From Flavobacterium sp. UBA6203 (GTDB lineage Bacteria; Bacteroidota; Bacteroidia; Flavobacteriales; Flavobacteriaceae), in NCBI GenBank assembly GCA_002421645.1, contig DIST01000064.1, positions 1 through 55,026 on the forward strand: 55,026 nucleotides of DNA. Direction: 5' to 3'. Of this stretch, positions 420 through 49,412 are shown one piece after another; position 1 is the first letter of the stretch, and each line of letters starts with the position of its first letter. The notes under the pieces were generated by a model. The model did no database searches and had not been told where the DNA came from. It saw only the letters and a list, made by a program, of their open reading frames with translations. The translations under genes and the position numbers were made by a program.

Positions 420-802
420 CTGATAACAAGGATTTAATATGGAAAAGTTTTTTTGAAGATTAACCACTAAGAGCACAAAGGAAGCACTAAGCGCACAAAA
501 GGAGATTCTTTAAATGTATTGCTTTATACTATATAGTAGGTGTGGTCTTGGGTTGTAAAAGTTTTACACAGAGCTGCACAGAGTTTTTTTTGATATGGAT
601 TGTGTTGAGTGAGCTTCACAGAGGCGTTGCACTTGTTGGAGTTTCAGGTTGTGACTTAACTGCGTTAAGCAGCTGCCTGCTTCGCAGGAGATTCCTACTT
701 CGGCGGAATGACAAGTTCAAGGATAAATTCAAATTCAAGGGTAAAGTGTTGCTCGCCTTGCGAGCCAGTGGGATGGTTATCTGGAATACCAAACGTCTTA
801 TC
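420..802. other. Intergenic debris without a credible gene
   Basis: This stretch holds fragments typical of Flavobacterium intergenic DNA: CACTAAGAGCACAAAGGAAG with a near copy CACTAAGCGCACAAAAGG, a GGAGATTCCTACTTCGGCGG piece and GCTCGCCTTGCGAGC. An 87-codon open frame at 542-805 has no recognisable protein features and runs into the repeat element, so I do not call it. Confidence 0.6.
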
Positions 803-900
803 TAGCCCCGATGGGAGTGGAAATCTTTTTTTAAAGTTTTACTTCGACAAGCTCAGCATGACAAAACTTTAAAAAAAATTGCAACGGACAGCGGGACTAA
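803..900. repeat. Flavobacterium-type intergenic hairpin repeat
   Basis: The element begins TAGCCCCGATGGGAGTGG and ends GCAACGGACAGCGGGACTAA. Inside it a 15-bp perfect inverted repeat (826-840 with 863-877) flanks a 22-nt loop containing CTTCGACAAGCTCAGCATGA. From memory very similar elements are dispersed in many Flavobacterium genomes. It could act as a terminator for the leftward permease gene at 940. Confidence 0.6.
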
Positions 901-939
901 AAGTCTTTATGGAATGTAGAATATCTGCTTCTAAAAAAA

Positions 940-34999: not shown

Positions 35000-35083
35000 T
35001 TATATAATAGCACAACAATCCCTCATCTGTCTCCAGAAGAAATAAAAAGAATTGTTATAAAAAAATGTGCTATTGTTTAGCAT
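35000..35083 (-). CDS. Phe/Tyr leader peptide of the pheA attenuator
   Basis: This 27-codon ORF (ATG 35083, TAA 35002-35000) begins MLNNSTFFYNNSFYFFW. Seven of its residues 7-16 are Phe or Tyr (five Phe, two Tyr) followed by Trp. This is the classical control run of an amino-acid attenuator. The Phe/Tyr codons (35065-35036) precede the antiterminator arm (35022-35015), and the stop codon lies just after that arm. A ribosome stalled on Phe codons would leave the arm free; one reaching the stop would cover it. Analogous to enterobacterial pheL in logic, not in sequence. Confidence 0.85.
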   Translation of the reverse strand: MLNNSTFFYNNSFYFFWRQMRDCCAII

Positions 35084-41437: not shown

Positions 41438-41525
41438 TATATTCTCTCGCAAAGGCGCTAAGACGCCAATTATTTTCTTGATTAACTTAATTTGTTACCG
41501 TAGAAAGTTGGAGAGCAATTCTAAC

Positions 41526-41629
41526 GTTATCTGCTTCCGATAATTCGGAATAGAATGTAGCACCTTTCCACTGGCGCGGGAGGTTGCTAAGCTTTCACAG
41601 GGTCTATTCCCTCCAGCTTTCGTGATAAC
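41526..41629 (-). ncRNA. SAM-I (S-box) riboswitch upstream of metH/metF
   Basis: On the minus strand the element opens with GTTATC and closes with GATAAC (P1). Between them lie GAGGGA, CCCTGTGAAAG, TTAGCAACC and AAAGGTGCTACATTC, the conserved blocks of S-box RNA in the right order. A -7 box TACATTTG (41653-41660) is 24 nt upstream. No intrinsic terminator follows, so the expression platform is probably not a simple Rho-independent one. Confidence 0.93.
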
Positions 41630-41652
41630 AAACACTATAATTATGAACACTG

Positions 41653-41783: not shown

Positions 41784-42956
41784 TTATTCTAACGCTTGTT
41801 TTAAGTCGTTAATTACATCTTGAACCGTTTCTAAACCAACAGAAACGCGCACTAAACCATCTGTAATACTTACGGCTAAACGTTCTTCTTCTGTTAATTT
41901 ACTATGGGTTGTGGAAGCTGGATGCGTTACAATCGAACGTGTGTCACCCAAATTAGCAGACAAAGAACATAATTTGATTTTATCCAAAAACTTTCTTCCC
42001 GATTCAATTCCGCCTTTGATTTCGAAAGCTACGATGTTTCCTCCTAATTTCATTTGCTTTTTGGCAACTTCATGTTGCGGATGCGATTTCAAAAAAGGAT
42101 ATTTCACTGAAGCAACATTCGGATGATTTTCTAAAAATTCAGCCACTTTTAAAGCGTTTTCACAATGCTTTTCGATACGAACCGGTAACGTTTCCAAACT
42201 TTTTGACAACACCCAAGCATTAAAAGGCGATAAAGCAGGTCCTGTATTTCTGGAAAATAAATAAATCTCACGAATTAAATCAGAACGCCCAACGGTTACT
42301 CCACCTAAAACACGACCTTGACCATCGATTAATTTGGTAGCTGAATGAATCACTAAATCGGCACCAAATTGAATTGGATTTTGAATATATGGCGTTGCAA
42401 AACAGTTATCAATGATTAAAATTAAGTTGTGTTTTTTGGCTATTTTTCCCAATAATTCTAAATCTAAAATATCAACTGCTGGATTCGTTGGAGATTCTGC
42501 GTAAAGAATTTTCGTATTCGGTTGAATGAAATTTTCAATCGTTTCTGGTTGGTTCACATCGAAATACGAAGTGACGATGTTCCATTTCGGAAAATATTTG
42601 GTAAACAACGTATGCGTCGAACCAAAAACACTGCTTGCTGAAACGATATGATCGCCGGAATTCAATAAAGCCGCAAAAGTAGAATACACCGCCGCCATCC
42701 CAGTTGCAAATGCGTAGCCGTCTTCTGCTCCTTCCATTTGACAAATTTTTTCAACAAATTCAGATGTGTTGGGATTGGAAAATCGGCTGTAAATATTGCG
42801 TTCTTTCTCCTCAGCAAAGGAAGCGCGCATATCTTCGGCATCTTCAAAAATAAAACTCGAAGTTAAATATAGCGGAACTGAATGTTCTAAATATTGCGTG
42901 CGTTCTAATTGCGTTCTGATGGCTTGGGTTTCTAATCCTAAATTTTGGTTGCTCAT
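41784..42956 (-). CDS. Trans-sulfuration-type PLP enzyme (MetZ-like)
   Basis: This 390-aa Cys/Met-metabolism PLP enzyme has the N-terminal LETQAIRTQL, SVPLYLTSSF, then the PLP lysine in VIHSATKLIDGQGRVLGG and SLGDTRSIVTHPAST near the C-terminus. The family includes O-succinyl/O-acetylhomoserine sulfhydrylases and cystathionine gamma-synthases; the sequence does not settle which. It is 89 nt after thrA in the same direction. The frame extends to 43010 but I start at MSNQNLG. Between the two genes lies an inverted repeat at 43000. Confidence 0.88.
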   Translation of the reverse strand: MSNQNLGLETQAIRTQLERTQYLEHSVPLYLTSSFIFEDAEDMRASFAEEKERNIYSRFSNPNTSEFVEKICQMEGAEDGYAFATGMAAVYSTFAALLNSGDHIVSASSVFGSTHTLFTKYFPKWNIVTSYFDVNQPETIENFIQPNTKILYAESPTNPAVDILDLELLGKIAKKHNLILIIDNCFATPYIQNPIQFGADLVIHSATKLIDGQGRVLGGVTVGRSDLIREIYLFSRNTGPALSPFNAWVLSKSLETLPVRIEKHCENALKVAEFLENHPNVASVKYPFLKSHPQHEVAKKQMKLGGNIVAFEIKGGIESGRKFLDKIKLCSLSANLGDTRSIVTHPASTTHSKLTEEERLAVSITDGLVRVSVGLETVQDVINDLKQALE

Positions 42957-43045: not shown

Positions 43046-45460
43046 TTATAATTTTTTTTCGGATAAACGTAAAATATCGCCAAAAACACCTCTTGCGGTT
43101 ACGGATGCTCCTGCTCCTGCTCCTTGAATTACGATAGGTTGCTCTCCGTAAGATTCTGTGTAAATTTCAAAAATAGAATCCGAACCTTTTAACGAACCTA
43201 AAGCTGAATTGGCTGGAACTGAAATTAATTTCACTTCTAACTTTCCTTTGTCTTGTTGTAAATCGCCAGATAATTCGCCAATGTATCGTAACACTTCATT
43301 TGGTCCTTGAGCGTCTTTGATGTTTTGATAAATTCCGTCTAATTCGGATAAACGTTTTAGAAAATCTGAAGCGCTTCCTTCGCGTAAAGCTTCTGGAATT
43401 AAGTTTTGGATTTGGATTTCTTCGAATTCGTTTTGTAAATCTAATTCACGTGCTAAGATTAATAATTTTCGCCCGACGTCGTTTCCGTTTAAATCTTCTC
43501 TTGGATCGGGTTCGGTGAAACCTTTTTCGATAGCTTCTTGCAATACTTCGCTGAATTTCTTGTTTTCAACTGAAAAATTATTGAACAAATAACTTAACGT
43601 CCCAGAGAAAACACCTTTGATTTTGGTGATATTTTCACCTGATAAATGCAATAATTTTATCGTATCAATTAACGGTAAACCTGCACCAACATTGGTTTCA
43701 TACAAATATTCTTTTTGGTTTTCTTTTAATACTTTTCGTAGTTTTTTATAGAAATCAAAACTTACGGTATTCGCCACTTTATTAGAAGAAATCAAATCGA
43801 AACTATTTTCGGCTAAAGAAATATAATTTTCAATAAAAGTCGCACTTGCGGTGTTGTCAATTGCGATTAAATTTTCCAGATGGTGTTCTTTGGCGTAGGC
43901 GATAATATCTTCCACTTTGTAATCTTGACCTTTGTCTTCTAAAGTTGCTTTCCAATTTTCACTGATTCCGAATTTATTCAACAAGACTTTCTTTGAATTC
44001 GCAATAGCAAAGACATTTAACTTGATTCCTTTTCGTTTTTCGATGTTTTTTGCCGATTCTAAAATTTGAGAAATCAAAGTTCCGCCAACTGTTCCGTGAC
44101 CGAAAATAGCGATATTGATTTTTTTCGCTACTCCAAAAATTTCACCGTGAATCACATTTAAAGCACGCTTGAATTCATCTTGACTAATCACCAAACTGAT
44201 GTTTCTTCCCGTAACAGTGTTATTCAATAAAATTGGCGTGATTTTATTTCGGATTAAAGCCGTGTAAGGTTTGTGGAAATTCGTTAAATCTTGCCCAATA
44301 ATCGAAATCACAGCAATGTTATCATTTACCGAAATTTTATTGACATCTTTCGTGTAAAAATCAGTTTCAAATTCTTTTTCCAAACCAACCAAAGCTTTCG
44401 AAGCTTTGTCAGAACTCACGACTAAACCAATTCCTCTTTCCGAAGAACCTTGTGAAATAATGCTCACGCTAATATCGTTTTCAGCCATCACACGGAAAAT
44501 TCGTGCATCGACACCTGTTTTTCCTAACAAACCTCTTCCTTCTAAATTAATCAGCGACACATTGGTTAAAACTGAGAGCGATTTTATGCCTTCATTAGTT
44601 TGTTCAGAAGTGATTAATGTTCCATCATTTTCAGGATTAAACGTATTTAAAATGCGTAATGGAATATTTTTTTCTACCAAAGGAATAATCGTTTTGGCAT
44701 GTAAAATTTGCGCTCCGAAATTTGCTAACTCATTCGCTTCGTTAAATGACAAACGCTCGATTTTTTTCGCATCAGCCACTAAATCAGGGTTAGCAGTAAA
44801 AATTCCGTCAACGTGTGTGTAATTTTGAAATTCTTCAGCGTTTAGATAATTCGCTAATAAAGAAGCCGTGTAATTACTTCCATTTCTTCCTAAAGTAGTG
44901 GTTTCGTTATGTAACGTTGAACCAATAAAACCTGTTACGATGTTGACTTTATCGGTGTTTTTTTCGAAATAATCTAAAACATTTCTTTTAGAAACAGCAT
45001 CGATTGGTTGCGCATTTCCAAAGTTAATATCGGTTTTTATCAATTGACGAGAATCGGTGAATTGTGCTTTGATACTGTTTTCGTTTAAAACATAAGCCAC
45101 GTATTTTGCGGATAAAATTTCGCCATACGCAATAACTTGATCTTTTATTTTTTCGCTGTAATCTCCTAAAAGCGAAACGCCTTCTAATAATTTCTGTAAA
45201 ACCAAGAATTCTTCTTCGAAGATATTTTCTTTCAAGCCTTCTAATTGGTATTTTCTGAATTGCTCAAAATCCGCTTGAAAATTAATGTTGGCTTGTGCTT
45301 TTTTTAGTAAAATTACCAATTCATCAGTAGCGTTTCCTCTTGCCGAAACTACAACTGCGATGGGTTCGTTATTGAAATATTTTTGAGCAATTGTTTGAAT
45401 TACTTTTTGCAATCCTTCTCCGTTTGCTAATGATTTTCCTCCAAATTTTAATATTTTCAT
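43046..45460 (-). CDS. thrA: Bifunctional aspartate kinase / homoserine dehydrogenase
   Basis: This 804-aa fusion supplies homoserine for Met and Thr. The N-terminal kinase (about 1-290) has MKILKFGGKSLANG and TLGRNGSNYTASLLANYL. Two ACT-like domains (about 300-455) follow, with VSIISQGSSERGIG. The dehydrogenase (about 465-804) shows IAIFGHGTVGGTL and GAGLPLIDTIKLL. The start lies 1 nt from the metX-like stop, so they are translationally linked. It is in the metY-metX-thrA-metZ series behind the Met leader attenuator. Confidence 0.95.
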   Translation of the reverse strand: MKILKFGGKSLANGEGLQKVIQTIAQKYFNNEPIAVVVSARGNATDELVILLKKAQANINFQADFEQFRKYQLEGLKENIFEEEFLVLQKLLEGVSLLGDYSEKIKDQVIAYGEILSAKYVAYVLNENSIKAQFTDSRQLIKTDINFGNAQPIDAVSKRNVLDYFEKNTDKVNIVTGFIGSTLHNETTTLGRNGSNYTASLLANYLNAEEFQNYTHVDGIFTANPDLVADAKKIERLSFNEANELANFGAQILHAKTIIPLVEKNIPLRILNTFNPENDGTLITSEQTNEGIKSLSVLTNVSLINLEGRGLLGKTGVDARIFRVMAENDISVSIISQGSSERGIGLVVSSDKASKALVGLEKEFETDFYTKDVNKISVNDNIAVISIIGQDLTNFHKPYTALIRNKITPILLNNTVTGRNISLVISQDEFKRALNVIHGEIFGVAKKINIAIFGHGTVGGTLISQILESAKNIEKRKGIKLNVFAIANSKKVLLNKFGISENWKATLEDKGQDYKVEDIIAYAKEHHLENLIAIDNTASATFIENYISLAENSFDLISSNKVANTVSFDFYKKLRKVLKENQKEYLYETNVGAGLPLIDTIKLLHLSGENITKIKGVFSGTLSYLFNNFSVENKKFSEVLQEAIEKGFTEPDPREDLNGNDVGRKLLILARELDLQNEFEEIQIQNLIPEALREGSASDFLKRLSELDGIYQNIKDAQGPNEVLRYIGELSGDLQQDKGKLEVKLISVPANSALGSLKGSDSIFEIYTESYGEQPIVIQGAGAGASVTARGVFGDILRLSEKKL

Positions 45461-45461
45461 C

Positions 45462-46427
45462 TTAATTAAATATAGGCTTTAGTATGTTGTTTAGTTGTTC
45501 AAATTCTATCAAGAAAGCATCGTGTCCGTGAATGGATTTGATTTCGTGATAAAATGCATTGTTTTTATAGTTTTTGACTTCTTGAAAAGCCGTTTTAATT
45601 TCGTTTGCTGTAAAAAAACAATCGGTATCCACGCTAATTAGATGAATGTTTGATGAGATGCTTTTGATGACTTCCGATTGATTTTTGTTTTTAAAAATAT
45701 CTGTCGTTTTCAATAAATGATTCATGAGTTTGTAAGCCAAAAGTTGAAATCGATTTTGCAATTTTTCACCATGATGCAACAACCAACTTTCCACTTGAAA
45801 CAATCCTTCCGAATTTTGTAATTGGTTATGGAATTTTTCTTGCAATGATTCGGGTGTTCGATACAATAACATGGCATGAATTCGGGCATCGTGAATTGGA
45901 TTTTTGGAATTATTCAGAATTAAATCTTGGATTAACACATTTCCAATCAACCAATCAGAAGCTTTCCAATTTGTAGCAACTGGAATTAAATTCGCAATCG
46001 CTTTTGGTCGAATTGTTGCCATTTCCCAAGCAATTGCTCCGCCTAAACTTCCGCCAATAACAGCAAAAACTTGATTCACTTTGAACGAATCGATTCCTTT
46101 CCAAAATAAATTAGCAATATCATACGTAGTGAAATCTTGATAATTTTCAATCAAATTTTCTACATCTTGATAGCCATTTCCAGGAATATTGAAAGCTAAA
46201 ACCGCATATTTTTTGGTATCGATAATTTTATCATCGCCAATTAATGATTTCCACCAACCGTTTTCACCAAGAACTTGCGAATTTCCTGTCAATGCATGAT
46301 TCACAACCACCAAAGGCGCCGAACCAACTGGTTGTCCAAACAATTGATAGGACAAAATCACTTTGGATTGGACTACTCCATTTTGCAATGAAACATTTTG
46401 GAACACTATTTTTTGAATTGTACTCAT
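45462..46427 (-). CDS. Homoserine O-acetyltransferase-like alpha/beta hydrolase (MetX-like)
   Basis: This 321-aa alpha/beta-hydrolase has the MetX nucleophile elbow GGSLGGAIAWEMA with catalytic Ser, the oxyanion region NHALTGNSQVLG and a C-terminal GHDAFLIEF with the His. It is shorter than many MetX proteins (about 350-380). It follows metY after 64 nt containing an intrinsic-terminator-like hairpin and precedes thrA by 1 nt. MetX activity is inferred from motifs and neighbours. Confidence 0.87.
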   Translation of the reverse strand: MSTIQKIVFQNVSLQNGVVQSKVILSYQLFGQPVGSAPLVVVNHALTGNSQVLGENGWWKSLIGDDKIIDTKKYAVLAFNIPGNGYQDVENLIENYQDFTTYDIANLFWKGIDSFKVNQVFAVIGGSLGGAIAWEMATIRPKAIANLIPVATNWKASDWLIGNVLIQDLILNNSKNPIHDARIHAMLLYRTPESLQEKFHNQLQNSEGLFQVESWLLHHGEKLQNRFQLLAYKLMNHLLKTTDIFKNKNQSEVIKSISSNIHLISVDTDCFFTANEIKTAFQEVKNYKNNAFYHEIKSIHGHDAFLIEFEQLNNILKPIFN

Positions 46428-46491: not shown

Positions 46492-47784
46492 CTAAACTAA
46501 ATTTTGAACTGGCAATTTTTCGAAAACACTTTGTAAATCGGCTTTCAAATCTTCGATATCTTCTAACCCAACAGATAAACGAATTAAATCTTTCGTTACT
46601 CCAGTTGTGATTTGTTGCTCTTCTGATAATTGTTGGTGCGTTGTACTTGCAGGATGAATAATTAATGATTTTGTATCACCAATATTTGCCAACAATGAGA
46701 AAAATTGGGTTTCATCGGCTACTTTTTTAGCAGCTTCATAACCACCTTTTAATCCAAAAGTAACGATACCACTTTGTCCTTCTGGCAAATATTCTTGGGC
46801 TAAATTGTAATATTTTGATGAAATCAATCCTGGATAATTTACCCAAGCCACTTCGGGACGTTTTTGTAACCATTTCGCTAATTCCAATGCATTTTCACTG
46901 TGTTTTTTGATTCGAATAGCCAATGTTTCTAATCCTTGAATAATTTGAAATGCGTTGAATGGACTTAAAGAAGCTCCTAAATCGCGTAATCCTTCTATTC
47001 TAACTTTTGCAATGAACGATGCAGCACCTAAAACTTCATAATATTTTAATCCGTGATAACCAGCAGAAGGTTCTGTAAATTCCGGGAATTTTCCGTTGCT
47101 CCAATCGAAATTTCCTGCATCAATGATAACACCTCCAAGCGAAGTTCCATTTCCACCGATGTATTTTGTTAATGAATGAATGACGATGTTGGCTCCGTGT
47201 TCGATTGGGTTTAGCAAAAAGGGTGTTGCCACAGTGTTATCCACAATAAAAGGCACTTTGTAGGTTTGTGCGGCTTTTGAAATGGCTTTTAAATCGAGTA
47301 CATCTAATTTTGGATTTCCTAAACTTTCTGCAAAGAACACTCGAGTATTTTCTTGTGCTGCGTTTAAGAAATTTTCAGGATTTGATGGATCTACAAATGT
47401 TGTAGTGATGCCTAATCTTGGCAAAGTCACGTTTAACAAATTGTAAGTTCCTCCATATAAACTATTGGAAGCCACGATATGGTCGCCAGCTTTTAATAAT
47501 GTTAATAAAGCGGTTGATATTGCTGCAGTTCCTGAAGCGGTTACAACAGCTCCGATTCCACCTTCTAATTTGGCTAAACGTTGTTCTAAGATATCGTTTG
47601 TTGGATTATTTAATCTTGTGTAAATAAAACCAGCTTCGGCTAAACCAAAAAGATTGGCTGCGTGGTCTGAATTATTGAAAACGTAGGATGTGGTTTGGTA
47701 AATTGGAACTGCTCTTGTTCCAGCGTTTTTGGTTGTGTCGTGTCCTGCGTGTAAAGCGTTTGTTGCAAATTTATTTGTGCTCAT
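46492..47784 (-). CDS. O-acetylhomoserine sulfhydrylase (MetY-like)
   Basis: This 430-aa PLP enzyme should make homocysteine from O-acetylhomoserine and sulfide. Features are LHAGHDTTKNAGTRAVPIYQ and TTSYVFNN, the cofactor lysine in IVIHSLTKYIGGNGTSLGG, LSPFNAFQIIQGLETLAIRI and NIGDTKSLIIHPASTTH. The longer family length (about 425-430) favours MetY over MetZ. It is the first gene after the Met leader attenuator and the Cys-rich uORF. Confidence 0.92.
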   Translation of the reverse strand: MSTNKFATNALHAGHDTTKNAGTRAVPIYQTTSYVFNNSDHAANLFGLAEAGFIYTRLNNPTNDILEQRLAKLEGGIGAVVTASGTAAISTALLTLLKAGDHIVASNSLYGGTYNLLNVTLPRLGITTTFVDPSNPENFLNAAQENTRVFFAESLGNPKLDVLDLKAISKAAQTYKVPFIVDNTVATPFLLNPIEHGANIVIHSLTKYIGGNGTSLGGVIIDAGNFDWSNGKFPEFTEPSAGYHGLKYYEVLGAASFIAKVRIEGLRDLGASLSPFNAFQIIQGLETLAIRIKKHSENALELAKWLQKRPEVAWVNYPGLISSKYYNLAQEYLPEGQSGIVTFGLKGGYEAAKKVADETQFFSLLANIGDTKSLIIHPASTTHQQLSEEQQITTGVTKDLIRLSVGLEDIEDLKADLQSVFEKLPVQNLV

Positions 47785-47844: not shown

Positions 47845-47895
47845 TCAGCTACACATTCGACAACATCGTCTTGGATTGTAAATGGCTATTTTCAT
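47845..47895 (-). CDS. Cys-rich upstream ORF (uORF2) of the met operon
   Basis: This 16-aa frame reads MKIAIYNPRRCCRMCS and stops at TGA, 60 nt before metY. Three Cys sit in five residues. Cys-rich short ORFs act as cysteine-responsive attenuators upstream of sulfur genes in mycobacteria; whether this one does is untested. It lies between the attenuator terminator and metY, so it would be translated only on readthrough transcripts or after initiation nearby. Confidence 0.6.
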   Translation of the reverse strand: MKIAIYNPRRCCRMCS

Positions 47896-47916
47896 ATTTG
47901 TTGTGTTTTTAGAAAT

Positions 47917-47944
47917 AAAAAAACCTCTGCTTTCGACAGAGGTT
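47917..47944 (-). terminator. Attenuator terminator of the met operon
   Basis: Minus strand AACCTCTG / CAGAGGTT, an 8-bp stem with a 7-nt loop (TCGAAAG) and a T7 run. It lies between the Met leader ORF and metY. Its 5' arm CCTCTG (47937-47942) can pair with CAGAGG (47985-47990) inside the leader ORF, helped by TATTG (47975-47979) with CAATA (47946-47950). Confidence 0.85.
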
Positions 47945-47969
47945 ATATTGAATTAATTTACTTTTAAAA

Positions 47970-48038
47970 TTATGCAATAGGTTTCCTCTGCGGATTGTTC
48001 CACATCATCATACACATATTGCACATTGTAAAGTTCAT
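47970..48038 (-). CDS. Met leader peptide of the met operon attenuator
   Basis: This 22-codon ORF (ATG 48038, TAA 47972-47970) starts MNFTMCNMCMMMW and continues NNPQRKPIA. Six of 22 residues are Met, three of them consecutive (48011-48003), with two Cys between. The ATG is about 27 nt after a perfect -7 box. The Met codons precede the antiterminator arm and the stop codon follows it, so the geometry mirrors the pheA leader. Confidence 0.8.
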   Translation of the reverse strand: MNFTMCNMCMMMWNNPQRKPIA

Positions 48039-48064
48039 CTTCTATTTCTTTTAGTTTGACAGGG

Positions 48065-48072
48065 CAAAATTA
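48065..48072 (-). promoter_or_regulatory. -7 box of the met operon leader
   Basis: Minus strand TAATTTTG, perfect TAnnTTTG; the leader ATG is about 27 nt downstream. A TAGATT-type palindrome (48071-48085) overlaps its upstream edge. Confidence 0.6.
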
Positions 48073-48156
48073 GATTTATTTTCTACAATAAAAAAATAAA
48101 TAGATTATTTTTCTAAATTTTGTTATTTATTATATTATAAATAGATTTTTAATCTA
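48071..48156. promoter_or_regulatory. Operator cluster upstream of the met leader (three TAGATT-type palindromes)
   Basis: TAGATTTATTTTCTA (48071-48085), TAGATTATTTTTCTA (48101-48115) and TAGATTTTTAATCTA (48142-48156) share TAGATT, three free bases, then wwTCTA (w = A or T). The last is a perfect palindrome identical in design to the one at 41719 upstream of metH. The first overlaps the -7 box; the second lies just upstream of -33. Confidence 0.5.
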
Positions 48157-48194
48157 AAAAAATGTTTAGAAGTAAAAATAAAAACTATAAAAAC

Positions 48195-48218
48195 AAAAAG
48201 AGGCAAAAGCCTCTTTTT
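48195..48218 (-). terminator. Terminator of the anchor-J T9SS gene
   Basis: AAAAAGAGGC / GCCTCTTTTT, 10-bp stem with AAAA loop, T-rich on the minus strand. Confidence 0.85.
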
Positions 48219-48242
48219 AAAATCTATTATCATGTAATAAGA

Positions 48243-49281: not shown

Positions 49282-49293
49282 CATCCGAAAACT

Positions 49294-49345
49294 AAGAGGA
49301 AAAATTTGAACTGATTGCAACCTCATTAAAAAATGCTAAAGCAGT
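49294..49345 (+). ncRNA. SAM-II-class riboswitch upstream of metK
   Basis: After P1 arm GAGG (49296-49299) come AATTTGAACTGATTGCAA, P1 arm CCTC (49321-49324), then AAAAAATGCTAAAG. These match the SAM-II (SAM-alpha) pattern AUUU-AAC-GAUUGCA, AAAUGxxGCUAAA. The element starts just after the transcript start. Two alternative pairings would undo it: GAGGAAAAAT (49296-49305) with ATTTTTCCTC (49378-49387), 10/10; and CTAAAG (49336-49341) with CTTTAG (49357-49362). SAM-II class is my best match; SAM-V is a close relative. Confidence 0.8.
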
Positions 49346-49412
49346 AATTACTACTCCTTTAGGCAGCACCTGCAATTATTTTTCCTCGCTTAAAATTTAA
49401 AAATAATTTATT

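Follow-up and report, generated by a model that had tools for sequence, protein, structure and literature searches.

The window analysed here, a 55,026-nucleotide stretch of contig DIST01000064.1 from Flavobacterium sp. UBA6203, carries on its minus strand the genes metY, metX and thrA, followed in the same orientation by a gene encoding a Cys/Met-metabolism PLP enzyme, and then by a SAM-I riboswitch and metH (Table 1). Along its length, the encoded MetY shares 98-99% identity with its counterparts in several Flavobacterium species. Control of bacterial methionine genes is usually described as acting through SAM (by riboswitches or MetJ) or by T-boxes. An Rfam scan of the window detected SAM-I and SAM-II riboswitches at metH and metK only, with none upstream of metY, and no T-box. 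The region upstream of metY holds a promoter box, a short Met-rich open reading frame (ORF1), an intrinsic terminator and a second, Cys-rich ORF (ORF2).

Table 1. Coordinates of genes, RNA elements and leader components in the window (kcal/mol values are predicted).
Feature	Position	Strand	Basis and remarks
Flavo-1 RNA	800..902	+	Rfam
pheA leader MLNNSTFFYNNSFYFFWRQMRDCCAII	35000..35083	-	terminator 34971-34950; arm GGGATTGT/ACAATCCC
SAM-I riboswitch at metH	41524..41631	-	Rfam
Cys/Met-metabolism PLP enzyme	41784..42956	-	nearest O-succinylhomoserine sulfhydrylase, below cut-off
thrA, bifunctional aspartate kinase/homoserine dehydrogenase	43046..45460	-	NF006959, above cut-off
metX, homoserine O-acetyltransferase family	45462..46427	-	TIGR01392 is the best model, but below the curated NCBIfam cut-off
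metY, O-acetylhomoserine sulfhydrylase	46492..47784	-	TIGR01326, above cut-off
ORF2, second leader peptide MKIAIYNPRRCCRMCS, Cys-rich	47845..47895	-	sequence, conservation
Intrinsic terminator 1	47917..47944	-	folding, covariation; hairpin 47944-47922, T-run 47923-47917
Region 3	47936..47950	-	pairing, covariation, folding; CAATA 47950-47946 and CCTCTGT 47942-47936
Protector hairpin (predicted), hides the arm in the untranslated leader	47972..48025	-	folding; -15.6 kcal/mol
Extension TATTG of the antiterminator arm	47975..47979	-	pairing
Antiterminator arm GCAGAGG (region 2), within the ORF1 tail	47985..47991	-	pairing, folding
ORF1, leader peptide MNFTMCNMCMMMWNNPQRKPIA, 22 codons	47970..48038	-	sequence; kept in relatives
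ORF1 control codons 5-12, M C N M C M M M	48003..48026	-	sequence
-7 promoter box TAATTTTG	48065..48072	-	sequence; matches the Bacteroidota consensus TAnnTTTG
Terminator-like hairpin of the secreted-protein gene	48194..48219	-	folding
Secreted-protein gene upstream of the leader, sorting domain PF18962	48243..49172	-	Pfam
SAM-II riboswitch at divergent metK	49290..49349	+	Rfam

The original prediction for this region had proposed a methionine leader-peptide attenuator composed of a perfect -7 box, a 22-residue ORF with a run of Met codons, a terminator, and an arm inside the ORF able to pair with the 5' arm of that terminator, and each of these parts is present in the sequence. The box, TAATTTTG, fits the consensus TAnnTTTG (quoted for Bacteroidota in PMC7366714), and a perfect TAnnTTTG lies within 60 nt 5' of the first leader ORF at 23 of 81 loci, as against 36 of 773 control windows. 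ORF1 contains six ATG codons including its start codon, three of them consecutive (codons 10-12), and two Cys codons besides; its start is preceded by an A at -3. Bacteroidetes are described in PMC6847099, a ribosome-profiling study of F. johnsoniae, as lacking Shine-Dalgarno sequences, preferring A at -3, and avoiding additional AUGs near starts. The terminator, a predicted 9-bp hairpin (-11.6 kcal/mol) with a T-run, stands between ORF1 and metY. Its 5' arm, the CCTCTGT of region 3, is shared with a predicted antiterminator, in which GCAGAGG pairs with CCTCTGT and TATTG with CAATA (6 + 5 bp across an internal loop, which together with an inner A/T stem give -10.1 kcal/mol). The window leader folds better than its shuffled counterparts (z -3.5; 0 of 200 shuffles equally good). 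A likeness to the pheA leader of the same window, also pointed out at the outset, is borne out: the pheA leader has an arm and a terminator of its own, its element ends 18 nt 5' of the prephenate dehydratase gene, and the two leaders are laid out alike.

Loci for comparison were collected by MetY match, 23 from 60 relatives and the best 80 of 564 from named genomes, which with the window gave 104 regions; one with a short upstream sequence (L020) and 19 near-duplicates were removed, leaving 84. A strict detector looked within 700 nt for a terminator and, stopping short of it, a small ORF that had three or more Met/Cys codons and also contained an antiterminator arm, the arm thereby being a rule of selection. 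Among these 84 non-redundant regions (drawn in part from the best 80 of 564), it was positive in 77 and missed seven; it was positive in 0/84 regions in each of five dinucleotide shuffles and in 0/84 on the opposite strand, which argues against a chance origin of the leader. At least five Met/Cys codons were present in 74/84 regions, and two modules of that strength in 35/84. When the arm rule was dropped, two kinds of module were found within 700 nt: module 1 in 58 regions and module 2 (recognised by CTTT in the 5' arm of its terminator) in 68, with both in tandem in 44 of the 84 and neither in two. A few of the 129 module calls made in this way are spurious, module 1 lies beyond 700 nt in some loci (e.g. 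L061, L082), and five peptides judged to be non-leaders were left out of the alignment and folding counts. Because most sequences belong to one genus, none of these counts are independent. F. denitrificans (L074) is one of the species that carry the leader. In a typical tandem (L051), MNLTMCNMCRMMWKLPQSTSIA is followed by MNVIAKNMMMSCMMMRTMCCIDISYYHKRKT. The GCAGAGG within the module-1 ORF is a copy of the 3' arm of terminator 1. Module 2 has CCAAAAG instead, extended as TTACCAAAAG; this could base-pair with both the loop and the 5' arm of terminator 2. Several loci, for example L013, L014, L027 and L028, also contain, 5' of metY, a recurrent small ORF (MKRLQSVQIFPLVFGCKCMKPF or MRLQSVQIFPLSFRMQMYEMKLNSK) that resembles a dispersed repeat.

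These data bear on the simplest alternative, in which the hairpin is the 3'-end terminator of the upstream secreted-protein gene and ORF1 is a chance reading frame. That gene is indeed codirectional with metY, but it has a terminator-like hairpin of its own, the detector returned nothing in any shuffle, and the pairing is conserved; we consider this explanation barely credible.

The pairing was assessed in alignments of the two modules (alignment A3 without L100, L127 and L141; alignment A2 without L044). Across 46 module-1 sequences, 89.7% of antiterminator cells are paired and two-sided changes occur at 4/7 pairs, a number reached in 2/500 shuffles; the covariation score is 0.237, compared with 0.145 for shuffles (0/500 as high) and at most 0.141 when the arms are slid. 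Sliding by +2 gives five pairs with two-sided changes rather than four, yet has 11 cells rather than 15 and scores lower. For terminator 1, in 46 sequences, 97.5% of cells are paired, two-sided changes occur at 5/7 pairs (reached in 4/500 shuffles), and the score exceeds all shuffles and slides. Arms have been exchanged in concert: CAGAGG/CCTCTG is replaced by GCAGCG/CGCTGC in L104 and L125, by GCGAAGGC/GCCTTTGC in L124, by GGGCTT/AAGCCC in L018, and by TGTGGG/CCCACA in L013 and L099, while the extension TATTG/CAAT becomes ATGG/CCAT in L039, L041, L046 and L067 (judged by eye from the alignment). Module 2 (53 sequences) has 89.4% of cells paired and a score above all shuffles and slides; two-sided changes are limited to 2/10 pairs, a number reached in 227/500 shuffles and exceeded by some slides, so that module 2 rests more on conservation than on covariation. 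A mutually exclusive antiterminator is therefore conserved in module 1, and more weakly in module 2. Conservation of the ORF and of the terminator/antiterminator pairing had been singled out beforehand as the comparative check on the attenuator; both are kept in relatives, and the pairing covaries.

Two reading frames run through the arm in the 54 module-1 leaders whose GCAG-type arm is recognisable (a set that includes close relatives): the peptide tail is of PQR type in 34 and of SAE type in 20. Paired +1/-1 changes flanking the arm preserve the frame of both the Met run and the last codons, from which it follows that what is kept is RNA sequence in the arm and codons in the run. Pairwise comparison of the 20 distinct PQ-type ORFs of 22 codons gave 612, 627 and 1114 differences at the first, second and third codon positions, respectively. 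Cys is encoded by TGT 292 times and by TGC 196 times in all modules with an arm.

The effect of translation on the competing structures was modelled by folding the nascent leader as far as the loop of the terminator, all RNA 5' of the ribosome edge being masked and the edge lying 13 nt beyond the first base of the A-site codon (an assumed footprint). In the window, the antiterminator has 11.3-13.6 expected pairs at edges from +18 to +48 relative to the ATG, and none from +66 on. RNA folding had been proposed as a check, and the model predicts a clean switch: 13.0 bp of antiterminator when the ribosome occupies the last arm-freeing Met/Cys codon, versus 0 bp at the stop codon. A ribosome on any of the seven Met/Cys control codons of ORF1 would leave the arm free; the arm begins 14 nt past the first base of the last Met codon. 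The model was also run on the modules of the other metY loci, which had been selected for an arm and include a few doubtful members (e.g. L127), so the following counts partly follow from selection. At the last arm-freeing Met/Cys codon, at least 5 bp of antiterminator form in 67/67 module-1 and 73/74 module-2 leaders; at the stop codon, less than 1 bp forms in 66/67 and 67/74, respectively, with seven of the 74 module-2 leaders retaining at least 1 bp. Occupancy of a Met/Cys codon located before the arm would free it for 379/382 such codons in module 1 and 614/675 in module 2.

Taken together, these features make it very probable, and in our view well supported, that ORF1 and its terminator constitute a ribosome-mediated transcription attenuator, predicted to raise expression of metY-metX-thrA when charged Met-tRNA (and charged Cys-tRNA) runs short. 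We infer translation, stalling, termination and the identity of the signal. Transcription would start from the TAnnTTTG promoter, and ORF1 would be translated at once. With Met and Cys in ample supply, the ribosome would reach the stop codon and cover the GCAGAGG arm, and region 3 would pair with the terminator 3' arm. A stall within M-C-N-M-C-M-M-M would leave the arm free to pair with region 3, blocking the terminator. If the leader is not translated, the protector hairpin would hide the arm, and the terminator would form.

The behaviour of untranslated leaders bears on a different proposal, in which the signal acts at initiation: Met shortage would reduce initiator fMet-tRNA, ORF1 would be started less often, and the untranslated leader would alter the terminator. 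Met begins every protein, and with no ribosome at least 5 bp of antiterminator form in 67/74 module-2 and 35/67 module-1 leaders, where lost initiation would accordingly raise read-through; these proportions also imply that the strong protector hairpin of the window is not general. In the window, however, this hairpin limits the ribosome-free antiterminator to 0.5 bp, and lost initiation would lower expression. Nor would such a signal account for leaders that encode Phe, Asn or Ile/Val, for the Cys codons, or for the runs of internal Met codons, and we regard it as unlikely. Attenuation by stalling within ORF1, the reading we prefer, raises a question of its own, namely how a shortage of Met could be signalled by ribosomes held at internal AUG codons when all starts, including that of the leader itself, need Met.

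The window and its close relatives carry module 1 together with ORF2, and a search of both for a terminator after ORF2 found no clear one. ORF2 is nearly invariant: across 12 loci, ungapped identity is 0.979, versus 0.667 and 0.643 in the flanks (values depressed by indels), and differences at codon positions 1, 2 and 3 number 0, 11 and 59. The core PRRCCRMC is kept in F. haoranii (L067), and the pattern MGNMGNTGYTGYMGNATGTGY is found in 9/199 genomes of the genus, eight times at metY and once elsewhere (G436). We interpret ORF2 as what is left of the second module, or a variant of it, and putatively as a retained Cys-codon leader. Cys-codon leader peptides have been described at cys operons of Actinobacteria, with Cys runs near the stop codon and no conserved terminator (PMC1262725). 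ORF2 resembles these in both respects; they belong to another phylum and other genes, and the relevant part of that paper describes no Met codons in them.

Turning to the order as a whole, 53 of 246 genomes had a MetY match, which added 40 metY-family regions for a total of 124; the Rfam scan covered 121 of these (L012, L023 and L136 were left out). The 40 added regions were deduplicated neither against the 84 nor among one another (L136 and L055, for example, carry identical leaders), and both totals contain repeats. By the strict rule, the 121 regions, kin and repeats included, divide into 84 with a leader only, 23 with SAM-I only, one with both, and 13 with neither. SAM-I thus lies 5' of metY in 24 regions, 23 of them without a leader, and is absent from that position in 84 of 85 leader regions. 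In L133, the one region with both, the supposed leader is located past the riboswitch and is apparently a false call. Seven of the 13 regions with neither (L062, L096, L099, L101, L016, L017 and L141) contain leader ORFs with at least three Met/Cys codons by looser rules, and another, L127, has a Met-rich ORF before a hairpin. At loci without a leader from other genera of the same family (L105-L123), SAM-I is present in 19/19. Leaders outside the main genus were found in L104 and L124 (same family) and L125 (another family), and by a looser rule in L021. Many species of one genus appear to sense charged Met-tRNA and Cys-tRNA, through leader peptides, at a position used in sister genera for sensing SAM. 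Motif-based SAM-I matches 5' of metY, two in 84 regions, were judged to be due to chance.

The same distribution might suggest that the leader is itself a metabolite riboswitch, for SAM or another ligand, with an expression platform and an incidental ORF, since SAM-I occupies the equivalent place in other genera and is found at metH in the window. However, among the scanned loci that bear a leader, L133 excepted, Rfam detected neither a riboswitch nor a T-box 5' of metY on its strand; the arm is conserved in two different frames while the Met run stays in frame; third codon positions vary most; and the codons vary with the pathway. We consider a riboswitch very unlikely here.

Leaders of the same design occur at other genes. 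Covariance models of modules 1 and 2 matched 107 and 109 of 121 genomes of the genus, respectively, at E <=0.01, often in several places, and twenty stretches at further matches were examined. These leaders precede cysH-cysD-cysN, a metB/metC-like PLP gene, metX-thrA, further metY genes and, in one genome, metH (L154). Gene identity was verified on a single example for CysH, CysD, the PLP gene, AsnA, IlvD, MetH, MetX and OsmC, the others being assigned by eye; the MetX and metB/metC-like examples fall below curated cut-offs. In 14 hand-picked peptides, Met and Cys codons stand at 28:32 in ten cysH-type leaders and at 25:2 in four of metB/metC and metH type. Before asnA (L161, 150-227, plus strand), the leader MILRSNNFSANNNLNNSIRSGRLLH has seven Asn codons and a terminator, and is likely to be an asparagine attenuator; before ilvD (L163, minus strand, bases 76-150 of the reverse complement), the leader MQNSIIISLIINVVVVNTSAGEMV is also followed by a terminator, and is likely to be an Ile/Val attenuator. 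In the cases examined, the putative control codons match the downstream pathway, with Met/Cys at metY, Asn at asnA and Ile/Val at ilvD.

This recoding, in turn, bears on the idea that the Met/Cys-rich peptides act as products, for example as metal- or thiol-binding micropeptides serving as copper or redox sensors. Clusters of Cys and Met do look like metal ligands, but in two species (L018 and L019) the metY leaders have Met runs and lack Cys, save for a single residue near the end of each second leader; a comparable architecture has Asn codons before asnA and Ile/Val codons before ilvD; and the peptide tails switch between PQR and SAE while the RNA arms stay. Such a function has very little to commend it when set beside attenuation.

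The leader is not distributed evenly among sulfur genes. SAM-I was found at metH in 19/19 loci scanned, and the Met leaders at metH in L154 coincide with no Rfam match; four weak leader calls among 30 loci in the metH survey were judged to be chance. Leaders were found in 5/27 loci of the cysH survey and are consequently not general at that gene. At the level of the order, module 1 is matched in 42/246 genomes at E <=0.001, 17 of them outside the genus, where only G196, G279 and G174 have matches stronger than 1e-8. Module-1-like leaders MKIIANNMCKMMPDYSVGMLL and MKIIANNRCKMMLDYSAGMLL were observed in L156 and L157 before TonB-receptor-like and oxidoreductase-like genes (types by eye), and tandem leader-like elements in L151, L152, L155 and L160 before a small OsmC-like gene (by Pfam in L151, by eye in the rest), with an ABC-transporter-like gene also downstream in L155 and L160 (by eye).

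The methionine attenuator first proposed for metY thus stands in its essentials, with a conserved ORF, conserved and covarying pairing, and codons matched to the pathway; it needs to be extended to Cys codons, to tandem modules, and to the SAM-I alternative. We give about even chances to a broader model, in which the leaders form a sulfur-amino-acid regulon spanning the genus, built from one scaffold recoded for each gene, with tandem modules acting as two-ribosome gates and the SAM riboswitch replaced at metY. Leaders at metY would combine Met with Cys, those at metH and a metB/metC-like gene would be almost purely Met, and those at sulfate-assimilation genes would be richer in Cys; control would have shifted from the sensing of SAM to the sensing of charged Met-tRNA and Cys-tRNA. 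In the clade of the window, the second gate would have become a Cys-codon ORF that lacks a terminator (PRRCCRMC) and works by a separate mechanism.

The metY leader shares with the trp, his and phe leader attenuators a short ORF of control codons, an arm masked by the ribosome at the stop codon, and an antiterminator that excludes the terminator. Unlike them, it mixes Met and Cys codons, carries the arm inside the ORF, is frequently found in tandem, and has SAM-I in its place in sister genera. A functional counterpart is MetL of C. jejuni, a peptide of 20 amino acids with three Met codons encoded before metBA on a short RNA, for which attenuation was proposed in 2013 (PMC3847290); the passages on MetL in that paper place orthologues only in C. 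jejuni, C. coli and C. doylei. A translation start signal at MetL has since been seen, and a Met-rich leader (MMYQMR) suggested before a D-methionine transporter gene, according to the pertinent section of PMC11955535. The two are alike as Met-codon leaders of methionine operons, a likeness of function only; the portions of these papers concerned with MetL describe neither tandem modules nor Cys codons, in contrast to the metY leader. Tandem attenuators with two ORFs in one leader are known from Salmonella mgtCBR, where the signals are ATP and proline (PMC3641672, in its account of this leader), whereas both metY modules carry Met and Cys codons.

Within the phylum, strong clues for leader-peptide attenuation at amino-acid operons have been presented for F. 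psychrophilum, with conserved 5' elements named at pheA and hisG, among others (PMC9723704); the word 'methionine' is absent from the main text of that paper, and its supplement might list metY. A word search of PMC6847099 found 'leader peptide', 'attenuation' and 'methionine' absent. We found no report of a Met leader peptide in Bacteroidota among open PMC papers, in agreement with the earlier statement that such control is not established in this phylum; MetL was proposed outside it (PMC3847290). New here are the combined Met and Cys control codons, the tandem modules, the recoding of one scaffold for several genes, and the exchange with SAM-I at metY. Swaps between riboswitches or T-boxes and leader peptides have been described (PMC2965389, in the part dealing with such exchanges). 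Since metH and metK in the window have retained SAM riboswitches, the two kinds of sensor for one pathway can be studied side by side in a single genome.
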